From positions 1,054,001 to 1,118,000 of the forward strand of contig NZ_WKJP01000001.1 of the NCBI RefSeq assembly GCF_009674585.1: 64,000 bases of DNA, written 5' to 3'. Made by a program: the position numbers and the translations under genes. How positions within the stretch are numbered: the stretch's first letter is position 1; each line of letters starts with the position of its first letter. This stretch comes from Haloferax marinisediminis. Its GTDB lineage: Archaea; Halobacteriota; Halobacteria; Halobacteriales; Haloferacaceae. Shown here one piece after another: positions 6,995 through 23,598 of the stretch. The notes below the pieces were generated by a model. It worked only from the letters and a program-made list of their open reading frames with translations. It did no database searches and had not been told where the DNA came from.

Positions 6995-7057
6995 CTCCAG
7001 AAACAGATGAAACAGATGAACCGCTGGTTATAATTACTATCAGTGTATCTAACTGGT

Positions 7058-8287
7058 ATGGTTTCATTCGAGTTTTCACAATCAAACGACATTTTCAAAA
7101 ATCGGGACGTCTTGCGGGAAGATTATACCCCCGAAGAGTTGGTAGGCCGAGACGAGGAACTTGGGGAGTATCATTCTGCACTCCAACCAGTAATCAACAA
7201 TGAGTTGCCCTCGAACATCTTTCTCTACGGTAAGTCTGGCGTCGGCAAGACAGCAGCAACACGATTCTTGCTCGGCCGACTCCAAGATGCTGCAAGGTCG
7301 ATAACTGAATTGGACCTCCACGCCGTTCGTGTGAACTGTGACGGACTCAACACGAGCTATCAAGTTGCCGTCGCAATCATCAACCGACTTCGTGACCCCG
7401 AGAATCAGATACCAGTCACTGGTTACCCACAATCGAAGATTTACCAGTACCTCTGGGAAGAACTCGACCGATTCGGTACGATACTGATTATCCTCGACGA
7501 GGTTGACCACGTCAACGATGACTCGCTACTGTACCAGATCCCACGGGCCCGAGACAACGGGTACGTAGAGTCCGCGAAAATTGGATTGGTCGGCATTTCG
7601 AACGACCTTTCGTACCGAGAAGGACTCTCTGCCAAAGTCCAGTCGAGTCTGTGCGAAAAGGAGGTGTACTTCCCCCCATACGACGCCGGTGAGCTTCGTG
7701 AAGTGCTCGAACAGCGCACCCAAGTCGCGTTCCACGAAGATGCGCTCTCTGACGAAGTGATTCCCATGTGTGCCGCATATGGTGCGAAGGACTCTGGTGA
7801 TGCACGGCAGGCGATTAACCTTCTCCTCGAAGCGGGAGATATTGCACGAAACGAGAATGCTCCACAAGTGGCGGGCGAGCATGTCGAACAGGCCAAACGA
7901 AAACTTGAGTCAGATCAGATCACGACCGGAGTTTCGAAGCTCACCGAGCACGCTCGCATCACGCTGTACGCACTGACGACCTTCGCTGCGGACGGTGAGA
8001 CGCCAGTAACCTCGCCAGTCATTCGTGAGCGGTATCTCGCGCTTTGCTCTGCGAGTGGTATCGAACCACTCTCACATCGACAGATGCAGGCGCATCTCTC
8101 AGAGCTGAAGATGATGGGCGTGATTACTGGACGAGAGAAAAACCTAGGTCGAGGTGGCGGTAAGAAGGTATTGTATGGTCTCAACTACGACTTGCGTTTG
8201 ATTGTGGAGACCTTAGAACAAACAATCGACGATATCGGTGTACACCGCTCTGTTCAAGCATTCGTGGAGAACCATTCGGAGACGTAG
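7058..8287 (+). CDS. orc: Orc1/Cdc6-family replication initiator
   Basis: A 409-residue AAA+ initiator that binds origin boxes and recruits the MCM helicase. The AAA+ core shows Walker A LYGKSGVGKTAATRF near residue 60, Walker B ILIILDEVDHV near 155 and sensor 1 GLVGISNDLSYR near 190. The C-terminal winged helix (SHRQMQAHLSELKMMGVI) binds DNA. The frame is open from GTG 7043, but ATG 7058 (MVSFEFSQSNDIF) is the better start. ORB-like repeats on both sides and an AT-rich upstream region support a cognate origin. Haloarchaea carry many paralogues, so I do not assign a number. Confidence 0.92.
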   Translation: MVSFEFSQSNDIFKNRDVLREDYTPEELVGRDEELGEYHSALQPVINNELPSNIFLYGKSGVGKTAATRFLLGRLQDAARSITELDLHAVRVNCDGLNTSYQVAVAIINRLRDPENQIPVTGYPQSKIYQYLWEELDRFGTILIILDEVDHVNDDSLLYQIPRARDNGYVESAKIGLVGISNDLSYREGLSAKVQSSLCEKEVYFPPYDAGELREVLEQRTQVAFHEDALSDEVIPMCAAYGAKDSGDARQAINLLLEAGDIARNENAPQVAGEHVEQAKRKLESDQITTGVSKLTEHARITLYALTTFAADGETPVTSPVIRERYLALCSASGIEPLSHRQMQAHLSELKMMGVITGREKNLGRGGGKKVLYGLNYDLRLIVETLEQTIDDIGVHRSVQAFVENHSET

Positions 8288-8321: not shown

Positions 8322-8338
8322 TCATATTCTGTGCCTCG

Positions 8339-8369: not shown

Positions 8370-8441
8370 TGTTCCTCGCTCGTCGTCATTGGCAACCGTG
8401 GTGGACTTCTCCCTTGTCCTCACGGGTCCACAGTTACCTCG

Positions 8442-8471
8442 AAGAACAGATGAAGTCGCGGGGTGGGGTGG
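8442..8471 (+). repeat. Origin-recognition-box-like element, downstream copy 3
   Basis: aagaacagatgaagtcgcgg followed by ggtggggtgg. Three iterated same-strand boxes between the orc stop and a convergent glycosyltransferase gene make a second cluster besides the upstream one. Confidence 0.65.
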
Positions 8472-8528
8472 TATCACGAGCACATGAACTGTACTCATCT
8501 TCTTGATCAACGGTGGTCGCGACAGCAA

Positions 8529-9680
8529 TCACCAACGTCGGTTAATCGCGCGTTTGTACGTCTTCTCAGCCTGCTCCGCGACGCTGTCCCAATCGTATTG
8601 CTCGGCACGCTTCGTGGGTTGGGTCGCCGGCGTCTCACCTGCAAGTGCCCGTTTTAGTGACTCCGTGACTGAATCGACGGTTGGCTCGGCGAGATACCCC
8701 GCGTCGCCGATAACCTCACTCGCGGCCGACTCGGGATGTTGTGCCCCGATGACGGTACAGTCGGCAGCCATCGCCTCGGCGTAGGTGATGCCGAAGCCTT
8801 CACGGGTCGATGGGGAGGCGAACACATCTGCTGCACGCATGTGCCCAAGCACGTCTTCGTACTCGTCGAGGAACCCGAGGAAGTCCACTCGGTCGGTGTG
8901 ATTGAGGTTCTCTGCTTGGCGTTGGAGACGGTCGAACTCTGGACCATCTCCAACGATGCCGAGCGTCACGTCGTACTCGTTGGCGACCGAGTCAAAGGCG
9001 TCGAGGAGCAGTGAAACGTTCTTATCGGCGATGAGCCGCCCGGCGAAGAGCACGTCGAACGATTCTTGGTCTCGTTTTTCGGGAAGTGGGGCGTTGCGTA
9101 TTTGGTCAACGTCGATACCGTTCGGAACAACTTCGATATCGTCTCTGTCCGGACCGATGTCAGCGAGGCGGTCAGCGGTGATTCCCGAGACGGCGATTGG
9201 GTTTTGGGGGACTCGAACTGTGAGGTGTTCGACGAACTTTCCGAAGGGTGCGAGTGCACCGAGGTAGTCGTTCCAGTAATCTTGCCACACCTCGTGCCAC
9301 GTCGTAATGACTGGGACGTCGGTGCCGAGAGACGCGAGTTTCGACGAGAGAACTGGGAAGTAGGGGAAGACAGAGGCGACCACGAGGTCGTGGTCGTTCT
9401 TATGGAGTTGTTTGGAGAGGGGATAGGCGAGCCGAGCGGCGAAGTCGATTGCTTCAGTGATCGAGCGTCGGTCGTCACTGTAGAGGTCTGTTTCCGGGGC
9501 GACTGCGCGGAGAGTGACGCCCTCGTGTTCTATTTCGGAGGGGCCGTCCCAGAAGTGGCGGCCGTAGATTGTCACGTCGTGGCCATTGTCGGAGAGGCGG
9601 GTAGCGATTTCGTGGATGCGTTTTTCTGCGCCTCCGGTCACGTAGGGATAAACGACATTCGAGACAAAACAGACTCGCAT
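8529..9680 (-). CDS. Glycosyltransferase family 4 (GT-B fold)
   Basis: A 383-residue GT-B glycosyltransferase that would move a sugar from an NDP- or GDP-donor to a lipid-linked or glycan acceptor at the cytoplasmic membrane face. The N-terminal domain opens with MRVCFVSNVVYPYVTGGAEK, including the acceptor-side glycine loop. The donor domain has FAGRLIADKNVSLLLDAF and the retaining-enzyme signature SPSTREGFGITYAEAMA with its paired glutamates. No membrane segments are visible. It marks the left side of the glycan locus and converges with the repeats beyond orc. The donor sugar cannot be deduced. Confidence 0.88.
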   Translation of the reverse strand: MRVCFVSNVVYPYVTGGAEKRIHEIATRLSDNGHDVTIYGRHFWDGPSEIEHEGVTLRAVAPETDLYSDDRRSITEAIDFAARLAYPLSKQLHKNDHDLVVASVFPYFPVLSSKLASLGTDVPVITTWHEVWQDYWNDYLGALAPFGKFVEHLTVRVPQNPIAVSGITADRLADIGPDRDDIEVVPNGIDVDQIRNAPLPEKRDQESFDVLFAGRLIADKNVSLLLDAFDSVANEYDVTLGIVGDGPEFDRLQRQAENLNHTDRVDFLGFLDEYEDVLGHMRAADVFASPSTREGFGITYAEAMAADCTVIGAQHPESAASEVIGDAGYLAEPTVDSVTESLKRALAGETPATQPTKRAEQYDWDSVAEQAEKTYKRAINRRW

Positions 9681-9737
9681 TATGTACTTGCGGACGACCG
9701 AAAATAATATTTTTTCGGTCGGACGCGTTACTGCCCC

Positions 9738-10698
9738 TTACCGCTCGACTCTCGGGAACTTATAGTCGTACTCGGACACCACGTTTCGTGGGCCAAGTTG
9801 TCCGATAGAGTGGCGGGAAGAATCGTCTCGGAGGCGAATCGCTAATCCGGAGCCGTTCGTAACGTTTCGTTGCTCGACGGCGTAATTTGCATATCCCACG
9901 GATTCGAGTTCCGACTGAAGCGTCCACACAGACTCCTCGGGGAACCCGTGTGTCGTGAACGAAACCCGTGGGGCACCGCTCTCTCGAAGCGTGCAGTTTC
10001 CGTCACCCCAATATCAATGCATTAGGGCCGTCTCGTCCAGCTTGTAATTGTCTGGGACGACCTTACGATGTCTGTCTTCCTATGGTTCATACCAGCTGTC
10101 ATACACCTCGCGAAAGAGGGCTGCGCACGCGACCGGATTATCCATTGGTATAGTCGTCCTTGTTAAACGCGTTCGACCGCGTCACTGAGTACGGTTGCTC
10201 TGACGAGATGAGTCCGTCAGGGAGTCGTAGCCTGACGTGTTCAACGTGCTTTTCGTTGTTGTTCGAGACTTGGAACACACACGACCCGGACTCCTTCTTG
10301 TAGAGACAGTCATCCCCAAGGAGTTCGCCAACGACGATAGAGACTTGTGCTGGCGTGAATCCGAGGTCATCAGACTCAGATGGCGAATCTCGAAGCTCAA
10401 CGCTCGATTCGAGTAACCGCCGCTTGATCGCGTCAGCTGATGTCCCGTAGACAGTGGCAATCGTCTGGAGTGATTCACCTCCTCCGACGTACCGGTCAAC
10501 GATGTCTTCAGTGTGGTCGTCTAGCCACACGTATCGACTCCCCGCAGGACGGGTCGATACATCGTTCTCCAGCAATCGGTTTCGGATAGTCCCCGAAGAT
10601 ACGTCAAATTCGTCGGCGATCGACTGCATAGATTTGTTTTCGTCCACGTACTGTCTGATGATATCGTCCACTTGCTCGTCTAACCACTCGTATCGCAT
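9738..10698 (-). pseudogene. Decayed LAGLIDADG-type homing endonuclease-like gene with N-terminal HTH repeats
   Basis: Translation from ATG 10698 gives two consecutive HTH-like units (each about WLD..v.dII..Yv....S.q.IA....s...I..RLLE). These lead into an endonuclease-like domain beginning FTPAQVSIVVGELLGDDCLY. The frame then breaks: a one-base shift near 10140, an in-frame TAG at 10080-10082 and a TGA at 10014-10016, exactly where HWYWGDG-type sequences have Trp. Beyond these, the same frame continues convincingly (KLDETALMH ... YWGDGNCTLRESGAPRVSF ... EYDYKFPRVER) to 9738. Free-standing haloarchaeal endonucleases of this type are common selfish genes. Three lesions make it inactive. Confidence 0.75.
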
Positions 10699-10810
10699 AC
10701 TTCGATAGAAGACAACTCACCACATGTTATTTACGAATGTATCAATACAAATATCAGTACGCACATCGTATGTAACCCGTTTTAGTGACGGCGTCAAGTA
10801 GGGGGTGGAA

Positions 10811-11020
10811 ATGACCGATATCAAACTCAACCCGACTGACCGCGTGATTCTCCAAATGCTCCGAGAGGGGCGTTGTACACCTTCGTATATCGCCGACGAA
10901 CACGACTACAGCAGACAGAACGTCACGAACCGACTCAACCGATTGGTCGAACACGGATACGTCGACAAAGTTCACACCGGGTTATACGAACTCGTCAAAG
11001 ACCCCGGTCAGACTAACTAG
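10811..11020 (+). CDS. Small winged-helix DNA-binding protein
   Basis: A 69-residue protein that is essentially one winged helix: a first helix (TDRVILQMLREGRCTP), a turn and recognition helix (SYIADEHDYSRQNVTNRLNRLVEHG) and a short wing (YVDKVHTGLYELV). This is the MarR/ArsR-like mini-regulator type common in haloarchaea. The frame opens 6 bp earlier with a GTG, but ATG 10811 is preferred. It faces the same way as the first AlkP-fold enzyme 56 bp downstream and may regulate the glycan locus; that role is inference. Confidence 0.75.
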   Translation: MTDIKLNPTDRVILQMLREGRCTPSYIADEHDYSRQNVTNRLNRLVEHGYVDKVHTGLYELVKDPGQTN

Positions 11021-11076
11021 TCTCGAATCGTGTCCTTCGGAAGAATAATATCACTTCATGAATACGTGACCGTTAG

Positions 11077-12345
11077 ATGACCACTGACTGGGATAACATC
11101 GTCCTCTTGTCAGCCGACGCCCTTCGCGCTGACCACCTCTCCTGTCACGGATACCATCGAGAAACCTCACCCGTGTTAGACGAACTCGCAGAAGAGGGCC
11201 TGCACTTCACGAACGCCTACAGCGCGAGTTCGCACACGCGCGAAGCGGTCCCAGCATTGCTGACCGGGGAATATCCAGACACTGCGGTCGGGTCTGATTA
11301 CCGCCTCGCTACGGATACGATCGCCTCGACGCTATCCGAAGAAGGGTTCGCGACCGGGGGCTTTCACTCGAATCCGTTCGTCTCTCGGGCGTACGGCTTC
11401 GACGAGGGCTTCGATAAGTTCGACGACGACCTGCACCTCGGCCAGCACAAACTGATTGCGTTGGCACAGCGTGCACTCGACAAGCTTCGAAATCGGCACT
11501 ACGCTCGCGCCGAGGAGATCAACGAGCGATCGTTGGAGTGGATCGACTCCCTCGACGACGACCAACGGTTCTTCATCTGGAATCACTACATGGACACCCA
11601 CGGTCCGTACGAACCTCCGGGGGAGTACGCGACACTGTATCGGGAGGATCGGGTTTCTGACCGGGAAGCGGCTTCGCTGTACCAACGCGCCATCAAGGAT
11701 CCAGGGTCGATCACGGAGAACGAGCATCAATTGTTGATCGACCTGTACGATGCCGAGATTCGGTACAACGACGAGAAGATCGGAGAGTTTCTCGACGAAC
11801 TTCAGGAGCGGGGCCTGCTGGAGGAGTCGCTGCTGGTCGTCACCGCCGACCACGGCGACGCCTTCGGGGAGCACGGCTACTACGAGCACCCGCGGTACCT
11901 CCACGATGAGATCACCCACGTTCCACTGTTCGTCCGCCCGGCCGGCGGTGCCGACGGTCGGGAGGTGTCGGTCCCGACGAGCACGCTCGATGTGGCCGCT
12001 ACGATTGAGCGCGCGGTCGGCCGCGAGGTTCGCTCTGGGGGCGTGCCGCTGACGGAGGCACCGTCGGAGGACAGGACGGTGTTCCTGCAGGCCCGCGGGG
12101 AAGACGAGCACAGCCACCTGCGGCGCTACTCGCTGCGGACGAACGAGGGTTCGTGTTTCTGCGAGCGCGACCGGGAGACCAACGCAGTCGAATTTGTCGA
12201 GTGCTCCGACCGGTCGCTGCGGGAGCGACTGGAAGCGCACGTCGACGAGCGGACCCGCCGAGAGGGCGGCGACGGCGAGAAAGACGGCGAGGAGGTCGAC
12301 GAGGAGATCGAACGGCGACTGAGCGCGCTGGGGTACAAGGAGTAG
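11077..12345 (+). CDS. Sulfatase-fold (AlkP superfamily) hydrolase/transferase 1
   Basis: A 422-residue soluble protein of the sulfatase branch of the AlkP superfamily. The metal site begins with Asp14 (LLSADALRADH) and includes VVTADHGDAFGEHG. Counting eleven residues back from the TG of ALLTG gives Thr54 (HTREAVPALLTG) at the nucleophile position, not the Cys or Ser needed for formylglycine. It ends in RLSALGYKE, a tail shared with the two related proteins here. No signal peptide or membrane helix is seen, so it should be cytoplasmic. Unlike the next genes it is GC-rich and acidic, with a hydrophilic Glu/Arg/Asp tail. A glycan-modifying phosphotransferase or phosphodiesterase is an alternative to sulfatase. 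Confidence 0.8.
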   Translation: MTTDWDNIVLLSADALRADHLSCHGYHRETSPVLDELAEEGLHFTNAYSASSHTREAVPALLTGEYPDTAVGSDYRLATDTIASTLSEEGFATGGFHSNPFVSRAYGFDEGFDKFDDDLHLGQHKLIALAQRALDKLRNRHYARAEEINERSLEWIDSLDDDQRFFIWNHYMDTHGPYEPPGEYATLYREDRVSDREAASLYQRAIKDPGSITENEHQLLIDLYDAEIRYNDEKIGEFLDELQERGLLEESLLVVTADHGDAFGEHGYYEHPRYLHDEITHVPLFVRPAGGADGREVSVPTSTLDVAATIERAVGREVRSGGVPLTEAPSEDRTVFLQARGEDEHSHLRRYSLRTNEGSCFCERDRETNAVEFVECSDRSLRERLEAHVDERTRREGGDGEKDGEEVDEEIERRLSALGYKE

Positions 12346-12402
12346 TATCGCAAACGTTGGACCCAATACTGCTTAAACCAATAAATTACATCACCAAACA
12401 CT

Positions 12403-13881
12403 ATGAGTGACGGGTCTTCTCGGCTTGGATCGCTTGCACTTTCGTCTGGAACCTTATTATTCGGAAGGATATTCGGGAAACTGGCTAATGTAGCCGGTCT
12501 CGCCTTACTTACGCGAGAATTAACCAGCAGCAATTTTGGTGTCGTTATGCTTGCCTACACTATCTCTTCAGTTATCGGCCTGATATGTGTGTGTGGCATC
12601 CCTAACGGTTTAGCTAGTTTGTTACCACGGTTAGACGGGAAAAGGAAAATCAGGGTTTTGTTATCCGGAATCTCTATCTCGATAGCTGGTGGTCTCATAG
12701 GCTCAACTTTGCTCGTTTTCTTCCGAAAAGAGATTTCGATGGTCACCAGCGAACCGCAACTAACCACTATATTAGTTCCGTTTGCAGCTTTTGGATTTCT
12801 CTTTGGGCTTTCGAAGTCTGTGACCGGGGTCCTTCGAGGTTACAAGTTGTCCACCGAGGCGACCCTTTCCAGAGATATAATTGCCGAATCGCTCTCATTA
12901 GCTTTTCTAGTATTTTGGTTTCTCTCCTGGGAGTCATTTGAGGGGGTCTATGTCTATTGGTGGTTGATTCCTATCACTTCCATTCTTGTTGGGTCAGTGC
13001 TCTTTCTCAGGAAGATAAGTGAACTTCCCTTTAGTTTTCCGCAGGTTGACGATTACAAGTATATATTGGACTTTTCTTGGCCATTGACGATCGAATCTGG
13101 CTTCGTTGTCTTGATGTCTAATATTGATGTGATACTTATCGGTGTTTTTCTGACGTCCACACCAGTAGGGATCTATAAAGCAGCCCAACCAATTGCAATG
13201 TCAATGGTAATTATACTAACTTCGTTCACCTTCTTGTATCTGCCATTGGCTTCCGAGATGTACGAGAATGGAGAGCTGAAGGAACTCAACAATCTATACA
13301 AGATATGTACAAAATGGATTATCACCTTTTCAATTCCTCTGACTACGGTTATCATTGCTTACTCTGAAACGATTCTAAGTACAGTATATCAGCAGGAGTT
13401 CGCAGCCGGTGCAACGGCGTTATCTATCTTAACAATAGGCGTTTTTTTGCGTACCTTTTTTGGACCAAACGGCGCTATGATCAAGGCGATTTCCAAAACC
13501 ACTGTTGATTTATATGCCTCTGTCGCGAGTCTTCTTACGAATCTCTGTTTGAATCTGTTTCTCATTCCAAGAATTGGAATGGTTGGGGCGGCAATCGCCA
13601 CTGCTACAGGGTTCACCGTCTTTAATCTCATAGAGGTAGTTGTCACATACAAGTCAGTAAAGATGCAACCCATATCTAAAGAAAACATTCAAATTATCCT
13701 CACTGTAATCATATTTGGCGGGGTAGCCCGTCAGTTCTTGGGAGACACAGTTGGATCCTTATTCCTGTTTTCTCTCTTGGTAGGGATAGTTTCTCTAATT
13801 TCATCGCTAGTAGTTGCTGACTCTACCGAAGAACGAAGGCTAACCCGTGAGTTTACTACCAAGGTATCGGAGATGTTCTAG
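12403..13881 (+). CDS. Wzx/MATE-like polysaccharide flippase (Agl15-type)
   Basis: A 492-residue integral membrane protein with about 12-14 hydrophobic helices and the MVF/polysaccharide-export layout (LGSLALSSGTLLFGRIFGKL at the N-terminus; repeated ALSILTIGVFLRTFFG and GMVGAAIATATGFTVFNLIE further on). This class flips lipid-linked oligosaccharides from the cytoplasmic to the outer face; in Haloferax volcanii Agl15 is the low-salt pathway flippase. A ttaaaccaataaatta patch about 15-30 bp upstream suggests its own leaderless promoter. Base composition drops sharply from the preceding gene (roughly 40% GC in sampled stretches), marking the left edge of a transferred cassette. Confidence 0.87.
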   Translation: MSDGSSRLGSLALSSGTLLFGRIFGKLANVAGLALLTRELTSSNFGVVMLAYTISSVIGLICVCGIPNGLASLLPRLDGKRKIRVLLSGISISIAGGLIGSTLLVFFRKEISMVTSEPQLTTILVPFAAFGFLFGLSKSVTGVLRGYKLSTEATLSRDIIAESLSLAFLVFWFLSWESFEGVYVYWWLIPITSILVGSVLFLRKISELPFSFPQVDDYKYILDFSWPLTIESGFVVLMSNIDVILIGVFLTSTPVGIYKAAQPIAMSMVIILTSFTFLYLPLASEMYENGELKELNNLYKICTKWIITFSIPLTTVIIAYSETILSTVYQQEFAAGATALSILTIGVFLRTFFGPNGAMIKAISKTTVDLYASVASLLTNLCLNLFLIPRIGMVGAAIATATGFTVFNLIEVVVTYKSVKMQPISKENIQIILTVIIFGGVARQFLGDTVGSLFLFSLLVGIVSLISSLVVADSTEERRLTREFTTKVSEMF

Positions 13882-13945
13882 ATTAGACCAGGTAAGATGA
13901 TAAGAAAAAGTAATTAATATGTTCGTCTTAGAAGAGGACGTCACT

Positions 13946-15277
13946 ATGGACAATCCGAACGTAATCATTCTTGTGCTTGATTCGTTGAGATTTGATTACG
14001 TATCTCCAGAATCTAATAAAAGCTCAAACACGCCAAACATAGGAGATCTAATAACTGATGGAACATACATCGATAACGTTTATTCTTCCGGGTCGTGGAC
14101 AGTTCCCGCACATGGGTCTCTCTTCACGGGGAAATTACCTTCTGAAACCGGGATTGGTGGTGAGAATCGCCGATTTGATGCGGAACAATCAATTGCACAA
14201 ATAGCAAGCGATAACGGATACACTTCTATAGGAGCTTCAACCAACCCATGGATAACTGATGACTTTGGATTCGATCGGGGTTTTGACGTCTTTGAGCAAA
14301 GCTTTCCAGAACTACCGTTCGGAAGTGACGACCCGAGGAGCGTAATTAAAAACATTGACGGTAGAGGAAATGTCGGAGAGAAGTGGTGTGACTTCATAAA
14401 GTGGACGTTATCGTCGAACCAATTAGCTAGAGTTGGGAATTCCATTTACTCATTCCTCTCCGATGAACTACCGTACACAGAAGCCGACCAGTTCAACGAA
14501 GATGTCTTGAGTTTGGTGACAGAAGATCAATCGCCGTTTTTCTTATTTGCTAATTATATGGATGCGCATGAACCATACATGGACGAAGACGAGCTCGGTG
14601 AAAATGTTAGTTGGAATTTGGAGAGTCTCCAGTCACCACCGACTGCTGACTTGACGGAGAGTCTCCGCCAGCTGTACGCTGATGACGTCCAATTTCTAGA
14701 CAGACACATTGGTGAATTCTTTGATAGGCTTAGATTGAGAGGGATGTACGATGACTCGTTAATCGTTTTACTTGGTGACCATGGCCAATCTTTGGGAGAA
14801 AATGAGTACTGGGGCCATGGGACTTTCCTGTACGAATCGCTAGTCAAGATCCCACTCGTCATCAAGCCTCCATCCGACATGTCACCTATACCTGACATAC
14901 CTGCGCCCACAAGTATCACAGATTTATTTGATTTCTTATTTGAAGTCGTAAATGGAAGGTCTGACCAGATTGACTTTAATTCCATCTTTGGGAATGAATA
15001 TGTAGTGACTGAATCTTACGGGCCACACGAATCGCTTTTGGTAGACGGTGTCTCAAGCGACGGTTACAGGGGACTAGCCACGGAGGATTGTTATGGAATT
15101 ATCAATCTTAGTACTGCTGATGTTACGACAAATATGGTGGAAGATAGCTGTCTCCGGGAGCTTGAATCAATCATTGAATCCAAGAAGGAGTTAACCACAA
15201 AGCTAACGGACACAACCGTGACTGGTGAAGTAGATCAGGTAGTCGAGCAACGATTGGAACAGCTAGGGTACAAATGA
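13946..15277 (+). CDS. Sulfatase-fold (AlkP superfamily) hydrolase/transferase 2
   Basis: A 443-residue soluble AlkP-superfamily enzyme. The first metal Asp is in ILVLDSLRFDY (Asp12). The nucleophile loop SSGSWTVPAHGSLFTG puts Thr52 at the catalytic position, and a second metal cluster is LLGDHGQSLGENEYWGHG. It ends RLEQLGYK like its two relatives. The frame is open from ATG 13919, but ATG 13946 (MDNPNVIILV) fits the family start. Its stop overlaps the next start by 4 bp (ATGA), so the two are translationally coupled and probably act together. No export signal is seen. AT-rich like its neighbours. Confidence 0.8.
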   Translation: MDNPNVIILVLDSLRFDYVSPESNKSSNTPNIGDLITDGTYIDNVYSSGSWTVPAHGSLFTGKLPSETGIGGENRRFDAEQSIAQIASDNGYTSIGASTNPWITDDFGFDRGFDVFEQSFPELPFGSDDPRSVIKNIDGRGNVGEKWCDFIKWTLSSNQLARVGNSIYSFLSDELPYTEADQFNEDVLSLVTEDQSPFFLFANYMDAHEPYMDEDELGENVSWNLESLQSPPTADLTESLRQLYADDVQFLDRHIGEFFDRLRLRGMYDDSLIVLLGDHGQSLGENEYWGHGTFLYESLVKIPLVIKPPSDMSPIPDIPAPTSITDLFDFLFEVVNGRSDQIDFNSIFGNEYVVTESYGPHESLLVDGVSSDGYRGLATEDCYGIINLSTADVTTNMVEDSCLRELESIIESKKELTTKLTDTTVTGEVDQVVEQRLEQLGYK

Positions 15278-16893
15278 TGAATACAAGGCGGTTTTTAGTC
15301 TCAGTGCTGTGCGTTTCGTTCTTGTTTATTCTAATAGAACTTCATCGGCTAAACACTCTCGTTCCTTTGGATCCGTATTGGCGCTATCAAGGCGATATGC
15401 TGGCCGCATACGTGATCAACACAGGGCATCTCTCTACAGGTGGTGAGTTTGCAGAACATTCTCTTCTGACAGGGTGGGTCAATTCGTTCTATGACGATTT
15501 TGGAAGTCCAGTCATCGTCGCAGTGTTGTCTATAGTTACTGGTAAAGATACTCTCTATATTGAGACATTGCCAATATATGCACCAGCAATGATTCTAGTA
15601 CAGAGTGTCCTTGCGACAACGATAGTTGGTAAAAGGGACGTTTTCCCGGTTGCTCTAGCTGGGGCCACCTTCTACAAATTCCTCGCCCCTCATACCTTTA
15701 GTAATGCTCATAGGGGCGGATTTGCGTGGACGATGCTGCTGTTAACTTTGCTTGCAGTGGTATTGGCGAAACGCCAACCAAGCCGATCTACTGTCCTATT
15801 ATTGCTTTTTGCTGCTGTACTTCCAATGGCAGCTCATACACTTCCCGTTGCAGCTCTACTACTTCTATTTATACTGTTTCTGTTGAACGAGGTTCTTGGA
15901 AGACAAATGTTTGGCTACAAGCGGGCCGCGCTGGTCGCAATTGTAATTTTAGCTTACAATCTATTCGTATCTACTTGGGTTGGCAGAGTTGTATTCAAAT
16001 TCACCGTGGCCACATCTAGTGTGTCTGAACCAATTACTCTGTCTACGTTAGTACAATCGGTTACTCGATCCGCAGCCGTTCATTCTTCCCTGTTTCCGTA
16101 TCTAATCGATGGTGCACCACCAGAGTTCCAGATGATAGTAATTATTTCCGTAGCTACCGCAGCAGCGATAACTGTCATTGTTGTCTTGTATCGCCTCAGA
16201 CAGCTACTCAAATCGAGATCGATTGAGGATATACAAACCTTCGACATAGTCATTGGTGCGGTTGGTATTCAGGCTATAGCGTACATTAGTATCATTCCGT
16301 TTTTCGCCCCCAGTGGGGGAATAAATCCCCCTCTGCTTGGACTGATGTTCTTCCCGATATTCTTGGGAAAGTTCTCGGATATAACTAGAAGAATTAATCT
16401 ACCTGCTGTCCAGCGCCAAACTTGGGTATCGATTGGACTAATTATACTCATTCTCATTCCAGGTGCTATCGCATCCGTTGCAAATCCGATGACTGTAGGA
16501 AAGGTGAACTCGTTTACTGAAGATGAATATCAGACTCTTGAATGGGTTAGTAAACACGACTCAAATAGGCTTGTAACTGATTTTGACACGGCTAGTACCT
16601 ACTATGCAATTGGTGGTCGTTCGTCGACCTATCTCCCACCGCCTGGTGAGCCTGCGTACGCAACAGAGGAGGCGACAAGCCGAATCATACAAATCCATTA
16701 CACCAATCCAGGTCTCGCGTGTACTAAAGGTGGTACCTACCTAGTAACTGAACGGATGACGGACGTCGGATTAATACATTTAGGATCACTCGTCACGAAA
16801 CCAAATACTAATATTAGGTCAACTGTCCGGGGAAGCCCTAAATTTAATCTAGTATTTGAAACAAAGGACAGTTTCGTAGCTACTTGCGATTAA
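15274..16893 (+). CDS. Polytopic membrane protein, GT-C glycosyltransferase or Wzy-like candidate
   Basis: A 539-residue protein with about 10-11 hydrophobic helices through residue 420 and a C-terminal soluble domain of about 110 residues. An acidic/aromatic loop follows the first helix (LDPYWRYQGDMLAAY), where GT-C enzymes keep catalytic acidic residues. The tail (EYQTLEWVSKHDSNRLVTDF ... YYAIGGRSS) resembles the extracytoplasmic part of PMT-like enzymes. It overlaps the preceding AlkP-fold gene by 4 bp. Likely it uses a lipid-linked sugar on the outer membrane face or polymerises repeat units. I do not recognise the exact family; an unrelated transporter is possible. Confidence 0.6.
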   Translation: MMNTRRFLVSVLCVSFLFILIELHRLNTLVPLDPYWRYQGDMLAAYVINTGHLSTGGEFAEHSLLTGWVNSFYDDFGSPVIVAVLSIVTGKDTLYIETLPIYAPAMILVQSVLATTIVGKRDVFPVALAGATFYKFLAPHTFSNAHRGGFAWTMLLLTLLAVVLAKRQPSRSTVLLLLFAAVLPMAAHTLPVAALLLLFILFLLNEVLGRQMFGYKRAALVAIVILAYNLFVSTWVGRVVFKFTVATSSVSEPITLSTLVQSVTRSAAVHSSLFPYLIDGAPPEFQMIVIISVATAAAITVIVVLYRLRQLLKSRSIEDIQTFDIVIGAVGIQAIAYISIIPFFAPSGGINPPLLGLMFFPIFLGKFSDITRRINLPAVQRQTWVSIGLIILILIPGAIASVANPMTVGKVNSFTEDEYQTLEWVSKHDSNRLVTDFDTASTYYAIGGRSSTYLPPPGEPAYATEEATSRIIQIHYTNPGLACTKGGTYLVTERMTDVGLIHLGSLVTKPNTNIRSTVRGSPKFNLVFETKDSFVATCD

Positions 16894-16897
16894 CTAT

Positions 16898-18301
16898 CTA
16901 ACCTAGGTAACCAAGTTCTTTCAACCGTTCCTCAGTGTTTTCATTGATTTCTATATTTTCGTCACTATGACTAAGAGAGACTGAATTGTTGATCGTTGTA
17001 AGATATTCTTCACGATTCTCCTCACATAAGTCATTGAGAGGCTGTTCTCTTCCATTCTCGACATTGAAAATTTCACGGTTATCCCTGCTATCGATCACCA
17101 TTTTCGTTCGATACTTGATTAACGAAGCCAACCACTTAGAGTTAGAATTGTTATTGAAATCAACGGGATCCCCCGGTGAGGTCGAATGAGCAATAATTTC
17201 TCTGTCCTCTTTGATTGAGTCCTGTAATATATTTTGACCGTGGAAATTCCTTGAGGTCAATTCTGTCCCAGCTTCAGATAGTATTGTTGGCGCAAGATCA
17301 AGTAGACTCACTGGAGCAGATATCTCTTTTTCGTCTTGCACAGGTACATCACCTGCAAACACGAGTGGAATACGTAACATTTCCTCGTACAGTGTCATTT
17401 CCCTCGGGATCGAGGGGCGACCGGCATGTCCAAAGCATCCGTGATCCCAAAGTTCTTCTCCGTGATCAGAGGAACAGATGAAAAGTGTACTATCAAGGTC
17501 GATTTCGTCCACTAATTTAGATATGTTCTCGTCCGCCTGTAGGATACTAGCATCGTAAGCATCACGTAGGTATTGTTGTTGCTCTTTGTCGAGTTCCCAA
17601 ACGAAGTTACCTTTCCGGGTATGCGTCATAGCCCGTGTGAGGAGACGCGCGTATCGATTTTCATTGAAAGAGAACTCTGATACCTGTTCGAAGTGTTCTT
17701 CTGCAAAGTTATACGGATAATGTGTATCCATAAAGTGTATCCAAATGAAAAACGGTTCTTCAACAGCCGACATCCAATCAATCGCTTCTTCAACTAGTTT
17801 TTGGTCTTCGACGTGAGGCTGCAGGACTCCAGCGAAGCGATGGTAACTGTCCTTCAGCATCACCCCGATCTTACCGGAGACACCCCCAGAATCAAGAAAC
17901 TTCTTCCCTTTATCGAATATCTCGCTGGCTATTCTGGAGGATTCAGAGCTATCATCGGATATATTTGAAAAGTCAATGTGAGTGCCGAAATCACTATGGT
18001 AATTAAATCTCGGGATTTGGATGTTAGAATTAACAAAACAGGTTTGATACCCACTTTCTTGAAGATATTTTGGGATGGTATCCTTCTCCTGCAAAGCAAG
18101 AACACCGTCTGAAAGCGGGAGTAGTCCGGTAAGTGCGGAGGGCATTGAATGTGGAGTACACGGTGCATTAGATCTAGCGTTGAGGAAATTCACTTGGGCA
18201 AGCTGCTCGAGTGTAGGAGTAGTGTTTTTAGAGTATCCACCTACAGTCGTGTGGTCGGCTCTTACCGAATCCAAAGTGACGACAACTACGTTATCCGCCA
18301 T
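16898..18301 (-). CDS. Sulfatase-fold (AlkP superfamily) hydrolase/transferase 3
   Basis: A 467-residue soluble member of the same superfamily, on the opposite strand. Metal-site residues include Asp11 (VVTLDSVRADH) and FICSSDHGEELWDHGCFGHA. The nucleophile loop is NAPCTPHSMPSALTG. It contains Cys48, but by spacing to TG the catalytic residue is Thr49, and the Arg of the formylglycine motif C-x-P-x-R is absent. The C-terminus RLKELGYLG repeats the family tail. It converges with the GT-C-like gene (4-bp gap) and is divergent from the GT2 gene. It could be mistaken for a true sulfatase because of the Cys. Confidence 0.8.
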   Translation of the reverse strand: MADNVVVVTLDSVRADHTTVGGYSKNTTPTLEQLAQVNFLNARSNAPCTPHSMPSALTGLLPLSDGVLALQEKDTIPKYLQESGYQTCFVNSNIQIPRFNYHSDFGTHIDFSNISDDSSESSRIASEIFDKGKKFLDSGGVSGKIGVMLKDSYHRFAGVLQPHVEDQKLVEEAIDWMSAVEEPFFIWIHFMDTHYPYNFAEEHFEQVSEFSFNENRYARLLTRAMTHTRKGNFVWELDKEQQQYLRDAYDASILQADENISKLVDEIDLDSTLFICSSDHGEELWDHGCFGHAGRPSIPREMTLYEEMLRIPLVFAGDVPVQDEKEISAPVSLLDLAPTILSEAGTELTSRNFHGQNILQDSIKEDREIIAHSTSPGDPVDFNNNSNSKWLASLIKYRTKMVIDSRDNREIFNVENGREQPLNDLCEENREEYLTTINNSVSLSHSDENIEINENTEERLKELGYLG

Positions 18302-18372
18302 GGTGTTTGAGAGATAATCAAATGCAATAACTTTACTGACTCGTTGACTAATTCTTGATTGAGGTAGATGCT

Positions 18373-19380
18373 ATGAATGAACCCGTCTCCGTTATTTTGG
18401 TAAATTACAATACGAGCAATTACACTAACAGCTGTATTGAGTCACTGTTAGATTCGGACTATAAGAACCTAGAGATAATAGTTGTAGACAACAATTCCGA
18501 TTCAAGCGATATACAACAGTTAGAAGAATTTGACAAGACGGAATTCTATTATCTGGAGGAGAACATTGGATTTGCAGGGGCATGTAATTACGGTGCACAG
18601 AAGTCGATTGGTGAATTCATTTTCTTCCTTAACAACGATACTGAACTTGAATCCGACACAATATCATTATTAGTGGAGAAGGTTCGGAATCCTGAGGTCG
18701 GTGCAGTAACTCCTCAAGTTAGGTTTCACCACAATCAATCTGTAATCGACCGAGACGTAGGTTATTTCGATACGTTAGCGTATGGGTGGCATCCGCGGCA
18801 ACAAATGGGTGCAGATGAGTTGAAGTCGTCGGAAGAGGTGATTGAGTCCCCTTGGATCTCCGGCTGTGCATTTATGACGACAAAAGATGTTCTCAAAACA
18901 GTCGGCTACTTTGACGAAGATTTCTTTATGTACTGTGAAGATCTGGAACTCTCTATTCGCATCAGAAAACGGGGATACCGTCTCCAAGTTGTAAACGATG
19001 CTATCGTGTACCACAAATACTCTGCTTCATCAAAGGACGATGTTGAAATTGATCGGAGTTCCTTCCAAATCAAACATCAATCAAAAAACCGAATGAAGAT
19101 AATATTTAAACACTATCCCCACAAGCACATAGTTGCTTATTTTCCGCATTTGGTTCTTAGTAATGCGTACTGGTGTCTGGTATTGGCGAGCGACGATGGA
19201 ATATCAAGTGCCGCAACACAGGTCAAAGAATTAATTAAATATTCGTTATTAGGTGTAGTAGACCGGGGAGACCATGGTAGTAATGCCAACTGGATAGAAA
19301 TGATGACTAAAAATGGTTTTCGAGATTACCTCAACATCGCGTTGAACCGGTCTGAAACGTATAACGAAAACCAATTCTAA
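18373..19380 (+). CDS. Glycosyltransferase family 2, rhamnosyltransferase-like
   Basis: A 335-residue GT-A enzyme. The nucleotide-binding half has VSVILVNYNTSNYTNSCIES and IIVVDNNSDS, with FFLNNDTELE as the metal-binding DxD equivalent. The acceptor half has ISGCAFMTTKDVL and FDEDFFMYCEDLELSIRIRK, the pattern seen in WbbL-type rhamnosyltransferases. A TTG at 18355 opens the frame, but ATG 18373 is a better start. The dTDP-rhamnose-type genes immediately downstream make rhamnose transfer a reasonable inference, not proof. It is the last AT-rich gene of the cassette and lies on the cytoplasmic side, with no clear membrane anchor. Confidence 0.85.
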   Translation: MNEPVSVILVNYNTSNYTNSCIESLLDSDYKNLEIIVVDNNSDSSDIQQLEEFDKTEFYYLEENIGFAGACNYGAQKSIGEFIFFLNNDTELESDTISLLVEKVRNPEVGAVTPQVRFHHNQSVIDRDVGYFDTLAYGWHPRQQMGADELKSSEEVIESPWISGCAFMTTKDVLKTVGYFDEDFFMYCEDLELSIRIRKRGYRLQVVNDAIVYHKYSASSKDDVEIDRSSFQIKHQSKNRMKIIFKHYPHKHIVAYFPHLVLSNAYWCLVLASDDGISSAATQVKELIKYSLLGVVDRGDHGSNANWIEMMTKNGFRDYLNIALNRSETYNENQF

Positions 19381-19437
19381 GAAGCATCACTACTAAGTAA
19401 CGTAGAAATAACACTTTCTGGTTGAATCACACCCCAC

Positions 19438-19446
19438 ATATTAATA
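19438..19446 (+). promoter_or_regulatory. TATA box of agl13
   Basis: atattaata is centred about 24 bp before the agl13 ATG (19466), the spacing for leaderless haloarchaeal transcripts. It gives the conserved sugar-nucleotide block a promoter separate from the variable cassette. Confidence 0.6.
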
Positions 19447-19465
19447 CGCCAATTCCACCAACTAA

Positions 19466-19936
19466 ATGACAATGATACACGGAGTTGAAATCAAAAATCT
19501 CCAGGTAAATGCCGACGAGCGCGGCCACCTCGTTGAAGTATTCCGCGAAGATTGGGACGAGTACGACATTGACCCCGCCATGTCCTACTACTCGATGACC
19601 TACCCAGGTGTCGTCAGAGCCTGGCACCGACACCTCGAAGGCCAAATCGACCACTTCGTCTGCCCGAAGGGTCGTATCAAAGTCGGCGTTTACGACGACA
19701 GGGAGGACTCCCCAACCCAAGGCGAGCTTGACACGTTCATCATCGGCGAGCACAACCAGAAAGTCATCCGCATTCCGGGCGACTGCTGGCACGGGTTCAA
19801 AGCCATCGGCGACGAGCCGGCGTTCCTCATCAACTACCCGACGAACCTCTACGACTACGAGGACCCCGACGAAGAGCGAATTCCGTACGACGACGATAGA
19901 ATTCCGTACGACTGGAACGCCGAAATCCACGGCTGA
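19466..19936 (+). CDS. agl13: dTDP-4-dehydrorhamnose 3,5-epimerase-like protein Agl13
   Basis: A 156-residue cupin-type RmlC relative, epimerising C3 and C5 of the keto-sugar made by the 4,6-dehydratase. The RmlC core is visible: VVRAWHRHLEGQIDHFVCPK with the substrate His/Arg residues, then IPGDCWHGFKAIGDEPAFLI and NYPTNLYDYEDPDE. It is shorter than bacterial RmlC (about 185). The gene order agl13-agl11-agl14-agl12-agl8-agl6 matches what I recall for H. volcanii HVO_2056-HVO_2061 of the low-salt N-glycosylation pathway, which is the basis for the symbol. GC content returns to host level exactly here. Confidence 0.88.
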   Translation: MTMIHGVEIKNLQVNADERGHLVEVFREDWDEYDIDPAMSYYSMTYPGVVRAWHRHLEGQIDHFVCPKGRIKVGVYDDREDSPTQGELDTFIIGEHNQKVIRIPGDCWHGFKAIGDEPAFLINYPTNLYDYEDPDEERIPYDDDRIPYDWNAEIHG

Positions 19937-19970
19937 AACCCCGCAGGCGTCTATCGCGGAGTCACAAACA

Positions 19971-19977
19971 TATTTAA
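19971..19977 (+). promoter_or_regulatory. TATA box of agl11
   Basis: tatttaa lies 28-34 bp before the agl11 ATG, consistent with an independent leaderless transcript although agl13 ends only 68 bp upstream. Confidence 0.6.
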
Positions 19978-20004
19978 CATATTATTGGAAAGTCACATCT
20001 GTCG

Positions 20005-21078
20005 ATGAAAGGCGTCTTACTCTCGGGGGGGACTGGGTCTCGACTTCGGCCCATTACCCACACCGGACCGAAGCAACTCGTCCCAGTAGCGAACAAACCA
20101 GTCCTTGAGTACGCGATCGAGGACCTCAAAGAAGCGGGCATCACCGAGATTGGAGTCATCCTCGGACACAAAGGCCGCGAAGAGATCCAAGACCTCCTTG
20201 GCGACGGCTCTGAGTACGGAGTCGAGATTACGTACATCGTCCAGGGGAACCCACTCGGCCTCGCACACGCGGCAGGGTGTGCGAAAGACTTCGTCGGTGA
20301 CGACGACTTTGTGATGTACCTCGGCGACAACATCCTCAAACAGGGTGTCGTCGATCTCGTCGAAAGCTTCGAATCGGGGGACTACGGAGCAGGTATCGCA
20401 CTCCAAGAGGTAGACAACCCACAGCAGTTCGGCATCGCAGATGTCGACGCTGAGGGCAACGTCACCCAACTCATCGAGAAACCTGATGAGCCGCCGACGA
20501 ACCTTGCGCTCATCGGGATGTACGTCTTCTCTTCTGCAGTCTTCGATGCAATCGAACGACTTGAACCCTCCTGGCGTGGTGAACTCGAAATCACAGACGC
20601 GATTCAATCACTCCTCGAAGACGGGTACGCGATCGACTCCCACGTCGTCGAAGGCTGGTGGAAAGACACTGGGAAACCAGAGGACATCCTCGAAGCGAAT
20701 CAACTCGTCCTCGAAGACAAGTCACTCCGAAAGAGCGGAACGGTCGAATCTGACGCAACCGTTGACGGTCGCGTCGAACTCCACGAGACGGCGACCATCG
20801 AAGACGGTGCCGTCGTCCGTGGCCCGGTTTCGATCGACGAAGGCTCGGTCATCAAGTCCGGAACCTACGTGGGGCCGTACACGTCGGTCGGTGCCAACTC
20901 GACACTCGATGGAGTGCACATCGAGAATTCAGTCGTCATCGGTAACTCGACGATCGAGACGTCCGGTCGAATCGTCGACAGCCTCCTCGGCAAAGGTGCG
21001 AACGTCGGCAGTGCAGACGAGTTCCTCCCTGAAGGCCGAAGACTCGTGGTCGGCGAGAACTCTCAACTGAAACTCTAA
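20005..21078 (+). CDS. agl11: Glucose-1-phosphate thymidylyltransferase Agl11 (RmlA-type)
   Basis: A 357-residue sugar-phosphate nucleotidylyltransferase making dTDP- (or UDP-) glucose from glucose 1-phosphate. The N-terminal pyrophosphorylase signature is LLSGGTGSRLRPITHTGPKQ (residues 5-24). MYLGDNIL provides the metal-binding Asp and IEKPDEPPT the sugar-binding segment. From about residue 245, hexapeptide-like repeats (SDATVDGRVELHETATIEDG) form a left-handed beta-helix, as in the long archaeal RmlA forms. It is the first step of the dTDP-rhamnose-type branch with Agl12, Agl13 and Agl14. It is followed after 2 bp by a tiny zinc-binding gene. Confidence 0.92.
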   Translation: MKGVLLSGGTGSRLRPITHTGPKQLVPVANKPVLEYAIEDLKEAGITEIGVILGHKGREEIQDLLGDGSEYGVEITYIVQGNPLGLAHAAGCAKDFVGDDDFVMYLGDNILKQGVVDLVESFESGDYGAGIALQEVDNPQQFGIADVDAEGNVTQLIEKPDEPPTNLALIGMYVFSSAVFDAIERLEPSWRGELEITDAIQSLLEDGYAIDSHVVEGWWKDTGKPEDILEANQLVLEDKSLRKSGTVESDATVDGRVELHETATIEDGAVVRGPVSIDEGSVIKSGTYVGPYTSVGANSTLDGVHIENSVVIGNSTIETSGRIVDSLLGKGANVGSADEFLPEGRRLVVGENSQLKL

Positions 21079-21080
21079 CA

Positions 21081-21260
21081 ATGCAAATCATCACTCAAGC
21101 GTGCACGAAGTGCGGTACCATCGTCTCTGCGAACGAACTCGAATCGAATCGCGTGATGAAGTGCCCTGGACTGGGCTGCCAGAACGTCCTTCGGTTCGAC
21201 GACCTCGCCGCAGACGAACGTGAACACTTCCTCGAAAACAGAGACCGTTACAACATATAG
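21081..21260 (+). CDS. 59-residue zinc-ribbon-like small protein
   Basis: A short gene starting 2 bp after the agl11 stop and ending 13 bp inside the 3' end of the convergent agl14. Its product has CTKCG near residue 8 and CPGLGCQNVLRF near residue 28, four cysteines that could bind one zinc ion. It ends ENRDRYNI. Its reading frame, host-like codon use and tight spacing behind agl11 support expression in the same transcript. It may help RNA or protein binding, or partner the nucleotidyltransferase; no function is known to me. Confidence 0.75.
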   Translation: MQIITQACTKCGTIVSANELESNRVMKCPGLGCQNVLRFDDLAADEREHFLENRDRYNI

Positions 21261-22150
21261 TCGCTGAACGCGCCCTCGATTTCCTCGAGGTCGTCTCTGA
21301 GCGTTGGCTGTGGTCGCCCGAGCTCAGCTTCGATTTTCGAGACATCCAAGGACGAATTCTGTGGTCGTGCAGCGTCACGATTGAGGTCGGACATCGAGGA
21401 CTGGGCAATGAGCGATTCGTCGGAGCCAATCAGTTCACAAATCTGCTCTCCAAATTCGTACGGAGTGACGGCCGACTGACTTGCCACGTGGAAGGTTCCA
21501 CTATCATTCGCTTCGAGGAGGTCGAGCGTCGCCTCTGCAACGTGGCCTGCTCGACTAGGTGTGAAGCACTGATCTGTGAACAGAGGGACTTCATCACCAG
21601 AACTGAGCGTCGAAGCGACCCACTGTGGGAACCCAGTGATACTTTTCGTGTCCCCTCGAGCTCCGTAGACGAACGATAGTCTGAGAATCAACGACTCAGA
21701 GTCCGCATCTCGAACAGACTTCTCACCAGCAAGCTTCGAAGCACCGTACTCCTGGACTGGATCGGTGTCTGTATCTTCTGCGTAGTGTTCGTCTGTATCT
21801 CCTGCGAAGACGTAATCAGTAGAGAAGTGAACGAAGTCGATATTTCGCGTAGTGCAGACTTCTGCGATCTCCCCTGGTGCGACACCGTTCACCTGTGCTG
21901 CAAGCTCTGGGTTCGTCTCGCAACCATCGACGTCAGTGTATGCAGCACAGTTAATCACAGTATCCACATCGTGCTCATCCACGAGTGCTGCGACACGTTC
22001 GGTGTCCGTGATATCTAATTCGTGAAGTGGAATCTCGAATTCCGGGGGTTCCGAATGATATCCTCCAACGACGTCAGCACCGCGTTCTTTGAGCGTCTTA
22101 ACGACGACGCTCCCAAGTAACCCGTTCGCCCCAATAACGAGAGTACGCAT
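21248..22150 (-). CDS. agl14: dTDP-4-dehydrorhamnose reductase Agl14 (RmlD-type)
   Basis: A 300-residue short-chain reductase that reduces the 4-keto group to finish the deoxysugar nucleotide. The NAD(P) loop VIGANGLLGSVVV is at residues 5-17. INCAAYTDVDGCETNPELA is the classic RmlD segment, HFSTDYVFAGD precedes the active site and YGASKLAGEKSV carries the catalytic Tyr and Lys. It is transcribed opposite to agl11 and agl12. Its 3' end overlaps the zinc-ribbon gene by 13 bp, and its 5' end shares a 53-bp intergenic region with agl12. Confidence 0.9.
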   Translation of the reverse strand: MRTLVIGANGLLGSVVVKTLKERGADVVGGYHSEPPEFEIPLHELDITDTERVAALVDEHDVDTVINCAAYTDVDGCETNPELAAQVNGVAPGEIAEVCTTRNIDFVHFSTDYVFAGDTDEHYAEDTDTDPVQEYGASKLAGEKSVRDADSESLILRLSFVYGARGDTKSITGFPQWVASTLSSGDEVPLFTDQCFTPSRAGHVAEATLDLLEANDSGTFHVASQSAVTPYEFGEQICELIGSDESLIAQSSMSDLNRDAARPQNSSLDVSKIEAELGRPQPTLRDDLEEIEGAFSDYML

Positions 22151-22174
22151 GCAACCTTCGTGTCGATGAAAATG

Positions 22175-22184
22175 TAAATATATG
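22175..22184. promoter_or_regulatory. Shared divergent TATA element between agl14 and agl12
   Basis: taaatatatg sits in the middle of the 53-bp gap: 20-29 bp before the agl12 ATG on one side and 25-34 bp before the agl14 ATG on the other. Its near-palindromic core could place TBP for both leaderless transcripts, so they may be equally or competitively expressed. Confidence 0.55.
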
Positions 22185-22203
22185 CCGCCTCGAACATTGC
22201 ACT

Positions 22204-23136
22204 ATGGATATTCTCGTTACTGGTGGCGCTGGCTTCATCGGTTCCAATTTCGTTCGGTTCCTTCTCAACGAACGCAACGATTCTGTCACCACGCTCGACG
22301 CGCTCACGTACGCCGGGTCGCGTGACAATCTCGACGGTGTTCTCGACAATCCAAACCACGAGTTTGTGGAGGGTGATATTCGAGACCGTGAACTCGTCAA
22401 CGAACTCGTGGCAGACGTAGACGTAGTAGTAAACTTTGCTGCAGAATCCCACGTCGACCGCTCCATCAATGGTGCAGAACCGTTCGTGTCGACGAACGTC
22501 CAAGGGACACAGACGCTCCTCGACGCTTCGCTCGAAGCCGACATCGACCGCTTCCTCCAGATTTCGACCGACGAGGTCTACGGTGAGATTCACGAGGGCT
22601 TGTTCACCGAAGACGACCCACTCAATCCGCGGAACCCCTACTCGGCGACGAAGGCCGGTGCGGATTTGCTCGTCCAGAGCTACCGGGAGACACACGATCT
22701 TCCTGTGCTCATTACGCGTACCTGCAACAATTTCGGACCCCGTCAACATCCAGAGAAACTCATTCCGAAGTTCATCAAGCGCGCTGCTGAAGGCGAGACC
22801 CTCCCAGTGTACGGTGATGGGTCGAACGTCCGAGAGTGGATTTACGTCGAGGACAACTGCACCGCACTCGACACAGTTCTCCGAGAGGGTGAAATCGGTG
22901 AAGTGTACAACATCGGGAGCGGCGTCGAACTCTCGAACCTCGAGACCACTGAAAAGATTCTGGAAGCTGTCGGCGGTTCATCCGACCAGATTGAGTTCGT
23001 CGAAGACCGTGCAGGACACGACCAGCGATACGCGATTGATGCGACAAAAACGAAGGAACTCGGCTGGGAGCCAGAGTGGAGCTTCGAGGATGGCCTAGAA
23101 GCGTGTGTCGACTACTATCTCGAAACGGATCAGTAG
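22204..23136 (+). CDS. agl12: dTDP-glucose 4,6-dehydratase Agl12 (RmlB-type)
   Basis: A 310-residue extended SDR that dehydrates dTDP-glucose to the 4-keto-6-deoxy sugar. It shows VTGGAGFIGSNFVRFLL (residues 5-21), the RmlB segment FAAESHVDRSI, ISTDEVYGEI with the catalytic acid pair, and YSATKAGADLLVQSYRETH with Tyr/Lys. TRTCNNFGPRQHPEKLIPKF is another RmlB hallmark. The stop codon is immediately followed by the agl8 ATG (zero spacing), so the two form an operon. A leaderless promoter faces away from agl14. Confidence 0.92.
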   Translation: MDILVTGGAGFIGSNFVRFLLNERNDSVTTLDALTYAGSRDNLDGVLDNPNHEFVEGDIRDRELVNELVADVDVVVNFAAESHVDRSINGAEPFVSTNVQGTQTLLDASLEADIDRFLQISTDEVYGEIHEGLFTEDDPLNPRNPYSATKAGADLLVQSYRETHDLPVLITRTCNNFGPRQHPEKLIPKFIKRAAEGETLPVYGDGSNVREWIYVEDNCTALDTVLREGEIGEVYNIGSGVELSNLETTEKILEAVGGSSDQIEFVEDRAGHDQRYAIDATKTKELGWEPEWSFEDGLEACVDYYLETDQ

Positions 23137-23598
23137 ATGTCTGAAGAGATTTTAGAGGAGAGCAAGCCCATACCAGACGATGAGTGGGAGTCCATTGTCC
23201 GAAATGTGCCACTGGTCTCGGTTGATTTGGTTGTTCGACACAACGGTGGGGTTGTACTCGGACTCCGCGAGAACGAACCTGCACGGGGTGAGTGGTTTGT
23301 CCCCGGTGGGACAGTGATGAAGAACGAGACACTTACTGACGCAGTCCACCGAGTTGCTCGAGAAGAATTAGGAAGTGACGTAACAATCGAAGAGCGACTG
23401 GGGACGTTCGAACACTTCTACGACACCTCCGAAATCGAGGGAGTCGACTCGAAGCACTACCTTGCAACCGCGTTCGTCGTTACTCTCGATGCAGACGAAC
23501 TTCGACCAGATGCACAGCACAGTCAGTTGAAAGTGTTTGAACCACCGTACGACGATGTCCACCCGTACGTCGAGCGGTATCTCACAAAACTAGACTGA
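23137..23598 (+). CDS. agl8: Nudix hydrolase Agl8, GDP-mannose mannosyl hydrolase-like
   Basis: A 153-residue Nudix protein. Its box GTVMKNETLTDAVHRVAREELG has the G-x5-E-x7-R frame, but the residue after the Arg is Val instead of Glu. This altered box is typical of GDP-mannose mannosyl hydrolases, which release the sugar instead of cleaving the diphosphate. It may hydrolyse an NDP-sugar to tune pools or supply free sugar. It is directly coupled to agl12. The symbol rests on position in the conserved block; ordinary Nudix housecleaning activity is the alternative. Confidence 0.8.
   Translation: MSEEILEESKPIPDDEWESIVRNVPLVSVDLVVRHNGGVVLGLRENEPARGEWFVPGGTVMKNETLTDAVHRVAREELGSDVTIEERLGTFEHFYDTSEIEGVDSKHYLATAFVVTLDADELRPDAQHSQLKVFEPPYDDVHPYVERYLTKLD

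Follow-up and report, generated by a model that had tools for sequence, protein, structure and literature searches.

Is a sharply bounded AT-rich block inside an archaeal glycosylation locus a set of genes that is exchanged between species, and does its base composition tell when it arrived? Such a block lies in Haloferax marinisediminis, in a stretch of 64,000 nucleotides (contig NZ_WKJP01000001.1, positions 1,054,001 to 1,118,000), which is called the window here and from whose first letter coordinates are counted. The original prediction, made from the letters alone, regarded positions 12346-19460 as an exchangeable cassette of glycan-specific genes between fixed flanks. With a probability of about 0.82, the block is the glycan core of the Haloferax alternative (Agl5-15 type) surface-glycan locus and is replaced as a block across species, in the manner of a replacement flexible genomic island.

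Maximum-likelihood segmentation of the guanine-plus-cytosine (GC) content over the window placed the best-fit low-GC segment at 12334..19510 (no strand), within about 50 bp of the predicted limits. Its GC content is 43.2% (0.432 versus 0.584 in the rest of the window; log-likelihood gain of 297), and no other 7.1-kb stretch avoiding the block fell below 0.541. The flanks have 55.7% (5603-12345) and 56.1% GC (19466-24890), and 56-58% overall, lower than the 65% or so that had been estimated by hand. Windowed GC and codon usage, which had been proposed as a check, break at both edges. The GC content at third codon positions (GC3) is 0.40-0.46 in the five interior genes versus 0.55-0.79 in the genes immediately outside, and the interior genes match the codon usage of the flanks poorly. 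A second, milder dip (48-53% GC) was found at 38000-41500, outside the glycan locus.

Profile searches agreed with the gene calls made for the interior. The first gene (12403..13881, plus strand) encodes an Agl15/Wzx-like flippase of the MOP family, 492 residues long with about 14 transmembrane (TM) segments by hydropathy, which matches Pfam Polysacc_synt (4e-17)/MatE. It is followed by a sulfatase-fold gene, sulf2 (13919..15277, plus; Pfam Sulfatase, 8e-35), a gene for a polytopic membrane protein of 539 residues with about nine TM segments (15274..16893, plus), another sulfatase-fold gene, sulf3 (16898..18301, minus; Pfam Sulfatase, 1.4e-42), and a gene for a family 2 glycosyltransferase, GT2 (18355..19380, plus; Pfam Glycos_transf_2, 4e-24). 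A third sulfatase-fold gene, sulf1 (11077..12345, plus; 63% GC), lies just beyond the left edge and was absent from the predicted interior list. The right edge is agl13 (RmlC; 19466..19936, plus; Pfam dTDP_sugar_isom; 88-90% identity in Haloferax). Next come agl11 (RmlA; 20005..21078, plus; Pfam NTP_transferase), agl14 (RmlD; 21248..22150, minus; Pfam RmlD_sub_bind), agl12 (RmlB; 22204..23136, plus; Pfam GDP_Man_Dehyd/Epimerase), a NUDIX protein gene at the agl8 position (23137..23598, plus; profile match) and agl6 for an AglJ-related GT2 (23655..24890, minus). This is the order agl13-11-14-12-8-6 that had been predicted, and the H. volcanii primers printed in PMC4022621 fit the first residues encoded by agl11 and agl12. 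The window thus combines agl11-14 with agl6 and an Agl15-type flippase, as does an Agl5-15 cluster. It was also observed that agl14 is far less conserved in Haloferax (67-77%) than agl11, agl12 and agl13 (88-95%).

Are the interior genes shared by other Haloferax species? I compared 15 genomes, one per species, in which ten loci (the window and nine others) hold 71 interior genes; the gene counts are approximate, as a simple ORF picker was used at the other loci. In blastn comparisons with the nine other loci, the flanks matched while the interior gave no nucleotide match at all. Between Haloferax loci, the shared flanking genes have 67-95% amino acid identity. Among the interior genes, 47 of 71 have any cross-locus match, with a median best identity of 29%. 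Identity above 45% is limited to one flippase pair and one sulfatase-fold-type pair (G004/G010), and identity above 60% to a single gene pair (2/71). The flippase of the window is at most 32% identical to those of other Haloferax. Thus, unrelated gene sets of similar function occupy the same place between shared flanks, as was predicted by analogy with O-antigen cassettes, and no low-GC interior common to the genus was found. The slot of all ten loci contains an AT-rich segment (42-45% GC), whose end coincides with agl6, agl13 or agl11 in those loci that have any of these genes.

The flanks, on the other hand, are not fixed. Among the 15 species, agl13 is present in five, agl6 in eight, and the gene for a family 4 glycosyltransferase, GT4, in four. 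The breakpoints vary accordingly. G011 has kept GT4 (84%) and sulf1 (74%), followed by unrelated genes. G003, G004 and G007 have kept the stretch from agl13 to agl6, and G010 that from agl13 to agl12, with unrelated genes to the left; agl13 and agl11 of these four are 88-95% identical to those of the window. G001 and G006 have agl6 on the right and an epimerase gene on the left, while G002 has agl6 on one contig and the epimerase gene, orc and GT4 on another. In summary, the swap of glycan genes between shared flanks holds, with neighbours that come and go rather than fixed ones, and variability of this kind had already been published (PMC5867893).

A collinear copy of the locus was found in G179, a genome of another family in the same order. 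GT4, sulf1, the flippase gene, sulf2, the polytopic protein gene, sulf3, GT2 and agl13-11-14-12 have the same order and strands there as in the window, and these 11 genes have 50-85% amino acid identity (62% for the flippase, 61% for the polytopic protein, which has its only homologue there, and 74-75% for sulf1, counting G011 as well). Three extra open frames lie between GT2 and agl13, the first of which (L069:7974-8753) is transposase-like with a zinc-finger-type N-terminus. Because GT4, sulf1 and agl13-11-14-12 are shared too, the unit of inheritance in G179 is larger than the AT-rich part. In G179, GT4 has 57% GC and sulf1 53%; the five interior genes have 42-48%, and the genes from agl13 to agl12 have 49-54%. 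Segmentation of the whole region did not isolate the interior but gave a segment at 19201-35025 with 49% GC. Where the window and G179 have identical residues, the fourfold-degenerate sites of GT4, sulf1 and the interior genes agree at 0.19-0.33, versus 0.25-0.29 by chance, and are thus at or near saturation, while agl13, agl11 and agl12 retain signal (0.40-0.48). The GC content at fourfold sites (GC4) is still 0.35-0.50 in the G179 copy.

Is the block then a recent import, a foreign island of 7 kb that came from an AT-rich donor and has not yet ameliorated in composition? The sharp break in GC and codon usage at both edges would fit, as would the polytopic protein, which is absent from the 14 other Haloferax genomes. 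However, the nine other loci have equally AT-rich, unrelated interiors, and the G179 copy is AT-rich in spite of near-saturated synonymous sites, where agreement is 0.19-0.33 versus 0.25-0.26 by chance. In addition, of the 22 named haloarchaeal agl13 loci that span 20 kb or more, 21 have a lower GC content in the 8 kb upstream of agl13 than in the rhamnose module; four of these loci are Haloferax loci already counted, and the loci are phylogenetically non-independent. Recent import is therefore unlikely. Since the G179 copy is near saturation and all Haloferax loci examined are AT-rich, low GC is not a clock for the swap and no sign of foreign or recent origin. Either the low GC of the slot persists beyond synonymous divergence, or a common pool keeps supplying it anew. 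A tentative extension is that AT-richness belongs to the slot itself, with the glycan-core genes of haloarchaea being held at about 40-47% GC within GC-rich genomes by selection (e.g. on expression or recombination) or drawn from a shared AT-rich pool that rarely ameliorates. This would fit both the window/G179 pair and the AT-rich unrelated cores at every Haloferax locus examined.

The full collinearity of the 11 genes with G179 might instead reflect an ancestral, vertically inherited locus, lost or replaced in the sister species, of which the window keeps the old version. I consider this quite unlikely, for the interior families are rare in haloarchaea (two of 293 genomes for the polytopic protein and GT2, four of 392 for sulf3, at the cut-offs used) and the saturation of GT4, sulf1 and the interior is not seen in agl11, agl13 and agl12. 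Could the block have moved by integration or homing, as a remnant of an orc plasmid or with a homing endonuclease, rather than by recombination in the flanks? PMC5867893 proposed a mobile element, and the left flank offers two candidates. The orc/cdc6 gene (7043..8287, plus; Pfam Cdc6_lid, Cdc6_C) is accompanied by origin-like repeats. Between GT4 (8529..9680, minus; at an HVO_2043-like position) and sulf1, about 1.4 kb holds a decayed LAGLIDADG-type endonuclease gene (9754..10698, minus; found by tblastn), 42-55% like intact frames of 320-321 residues in G006 and G007. Its N-terminal frame is intact (10138-10698), and the C-terminal half is encoded in a different frame that contains two in-frame stops, confirming the decay that had been predicted. 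But this gene is broken and outside the block, and none exists at that place in G011 or G179, where the gap between GT4 and sulf1 is about 60 bp and about 390 bp, respectively. Hallmarks of site-specific integration were not found at the borders either: there is no tRNA gene in the window, and the search of 5-27 kb gave no pair of repeats on the two sides of the block. Nor were relatives of the polytopic protein found in viral contigs or plasmid records. A mobile element thus has little probability, although the endonuclease may once have aided gene conversion, as PMC5867893 suggests.

Replacement of the glycan core between species remains the preferred explanation, and three observations weigh against it. 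Among the genomes compared, one per species, none revealed a recent exchange that had left identical islands. No pilin frame, such as pilA2, was read on the minus strand from agl6 to 25264 (24891-25263), the pilin homologues of this genome being elsewhere (C1:1356220, C3 and C5). The AglB gene lies about 0.9 Mb from the locus, so that attachment of the glycan to protein is an assumption based on the pathway of H. volcanii. As a separate observation, pilA2 adjoins agl6 in G001 and G003; it is a frequent neighbour of such clusters rather than a part of the pathway.

In the left flank, the orc and GT4 assignments agreed with the prediction, and an epimerase gene lies there as well, together with orc/cdc6, GT4, the decayed endonuclease gene and sulf1. 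Repeats with the core AACAGATGAAGTCGTGGGG at 6745-6978 and 8295-8468 flank orc/cdc6 in inverted and direct orientation and resemble origin recognition boxes. The stretch that contains orc (6958-8359) has conserved counterparts in G002 and G014.

What might the three sulfatase-fold proteins do? A formylglycine sulfatase was rejected, as the C/S-x-P/A-x-R motif is missing in all three; sulf3 has CTPHS without the Arg. When 23 sulfatase-fold proteins of these loci were aligned, 21 of them, including all three of the window, had Thr in the nucleophile column and two had Ser; the DHG motif of the metal site is retained. Hydropathy revealed no TM segments in the three proteins. They are most likely cytoplasmic enzymes that would sulfate (or phosphorylate) the lipid-linked glycan. 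Two members of this superfamily in Halobacterium salinarum, VNG1056C and VNG1057C, have been demonstrated to act as sulfotransferases on N-glycans (PMC11980604). The likeness, an alkaline-phosphatase/sulfatase-fold protein within a glycan cluster, is one of superfamily and context, and their cluster differs in being anchored by aglB (PMC11980604). The three Thr-type enzymes offer a directly testable sulfotransferase role. An extra sulfatase-fold gene lies between agl13 and agl11 in G003 (L044/L045) and G007 (L048/L049), but not in the window or G004.

The polytopic protein had been called GT-C-like, a label that holds by inference only. Sequence and profile searches gave no match in Pfam, NCBIfam or PDB, and the AlphaFold model from the single sequence (pLDDT 41.5) was useless and was not taken into a fold search. 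Each of the ten loci has a flippase, and nine also have one or more large polytopic proteins besides it; these large proteins have no Pfam family in common. According to PMC8241124, the oligosaccharyltransferase of the Agl15 pathway is unknown. One may speculate that the polytopic protein is this missing enzyme.

Taken as a pathway, cytoplasmic glycosyltransferases would build a dolichol-linked oligosaccharide, with rhamnose supplied by the adjacent Agl11-14. Before export, the Thr-type enzymes would attach sulfate (or a phospho group). The polytopic protein might add a further sugar or take part in transfer, and the Agl15-like flippase would export the product. The core would be replaced as a block by recombination in neighbouring genes common to donor and recipient. 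This homologous recombination is inferred, as are the nature of the glycan, the sequence of the steps and the N-linkage; the gene content, the compositional block, the shared flanks around unrelated interiors and the collinear copy were observed directly.

In bacterial O-antigen (Wzx/Wzy) cassettes, an AT-rich core that encodes a flippase, a polytopic protein and glycosyltransferases adjoins a dTDP-rhamnose operon. The window has the same make-up beside its dTDP-rhamnose genes. However, neither Wzy nor GT-C homology was detected in its polytopic protein, and H. volcanii makes a tetrasaccharide rather than a polymer; the product of the Agl5-15 type is an N-linked, sulfated tetrasaccharide that ends in rhamnose. 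Closer at hand, the alternative glycosylation clusters of Haloferax are reported to be hypervariable and low in GC (52%), and linked to orc1, an HVO_2043-like glycosyltransferase, agl6, pilA2 and a free-standing LAGLIDADG gene (PMC5867893). In H. gibbonsii LR2-5, the second glycosylation cluster is part of a long variable region that also contains orc genes and pilA2 (PMC7921747), and Agl11-14 of H. volcanii are biochemically proven dTDP-rhamnose enzymes (PMC4022621). The window resembles the Agl5-15 cluster in its Rml-type agl11-14, agl6, Agl15-like flippase, orc, a glycosyltransferase gene near orc and a free-standing LAGLIDADG gene (PMC5867893; PMC4022621), the likeness to H. volcanii being drawn from gene order and publications. 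It differs in its other interior genes, its three sulfatase-fold genes, its decayed endonuclease and the lack of a detected pilA2 by agl6. Replacement flexible islands, such as GI1 of Haloquadratum walsbyi and the O-chain and flagellar glycosylation islands of bacteria, are likewise clusters for surface structures, of the same function and swapped whole between shared flanks (PMC4033161, PMC4535781). Here the replacement was seen between species, not strains, and the core is AT-rich within a GC-rich genome.

Since the variability of such Haloferax clusters (PMC5867893) and homologous recombination in the flanks as the general mechanism of replacement islands (PMC4033161) are already published, the window is a further case of a known type. 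New here are the sharp borders of the block, the uniform AT-richness of unrelated cores, the near-saturated copy with the same gene order in a different family, and the Thr-type active site. The locus is a clean, bounded example, in which the G179 copy separates composition from age. Haloarchaeal surface glycans are linked to mating and have been proposed to affect virus sensitivity. Swappable glycan cores would thus be an archaeal counterpart of serotype switching.

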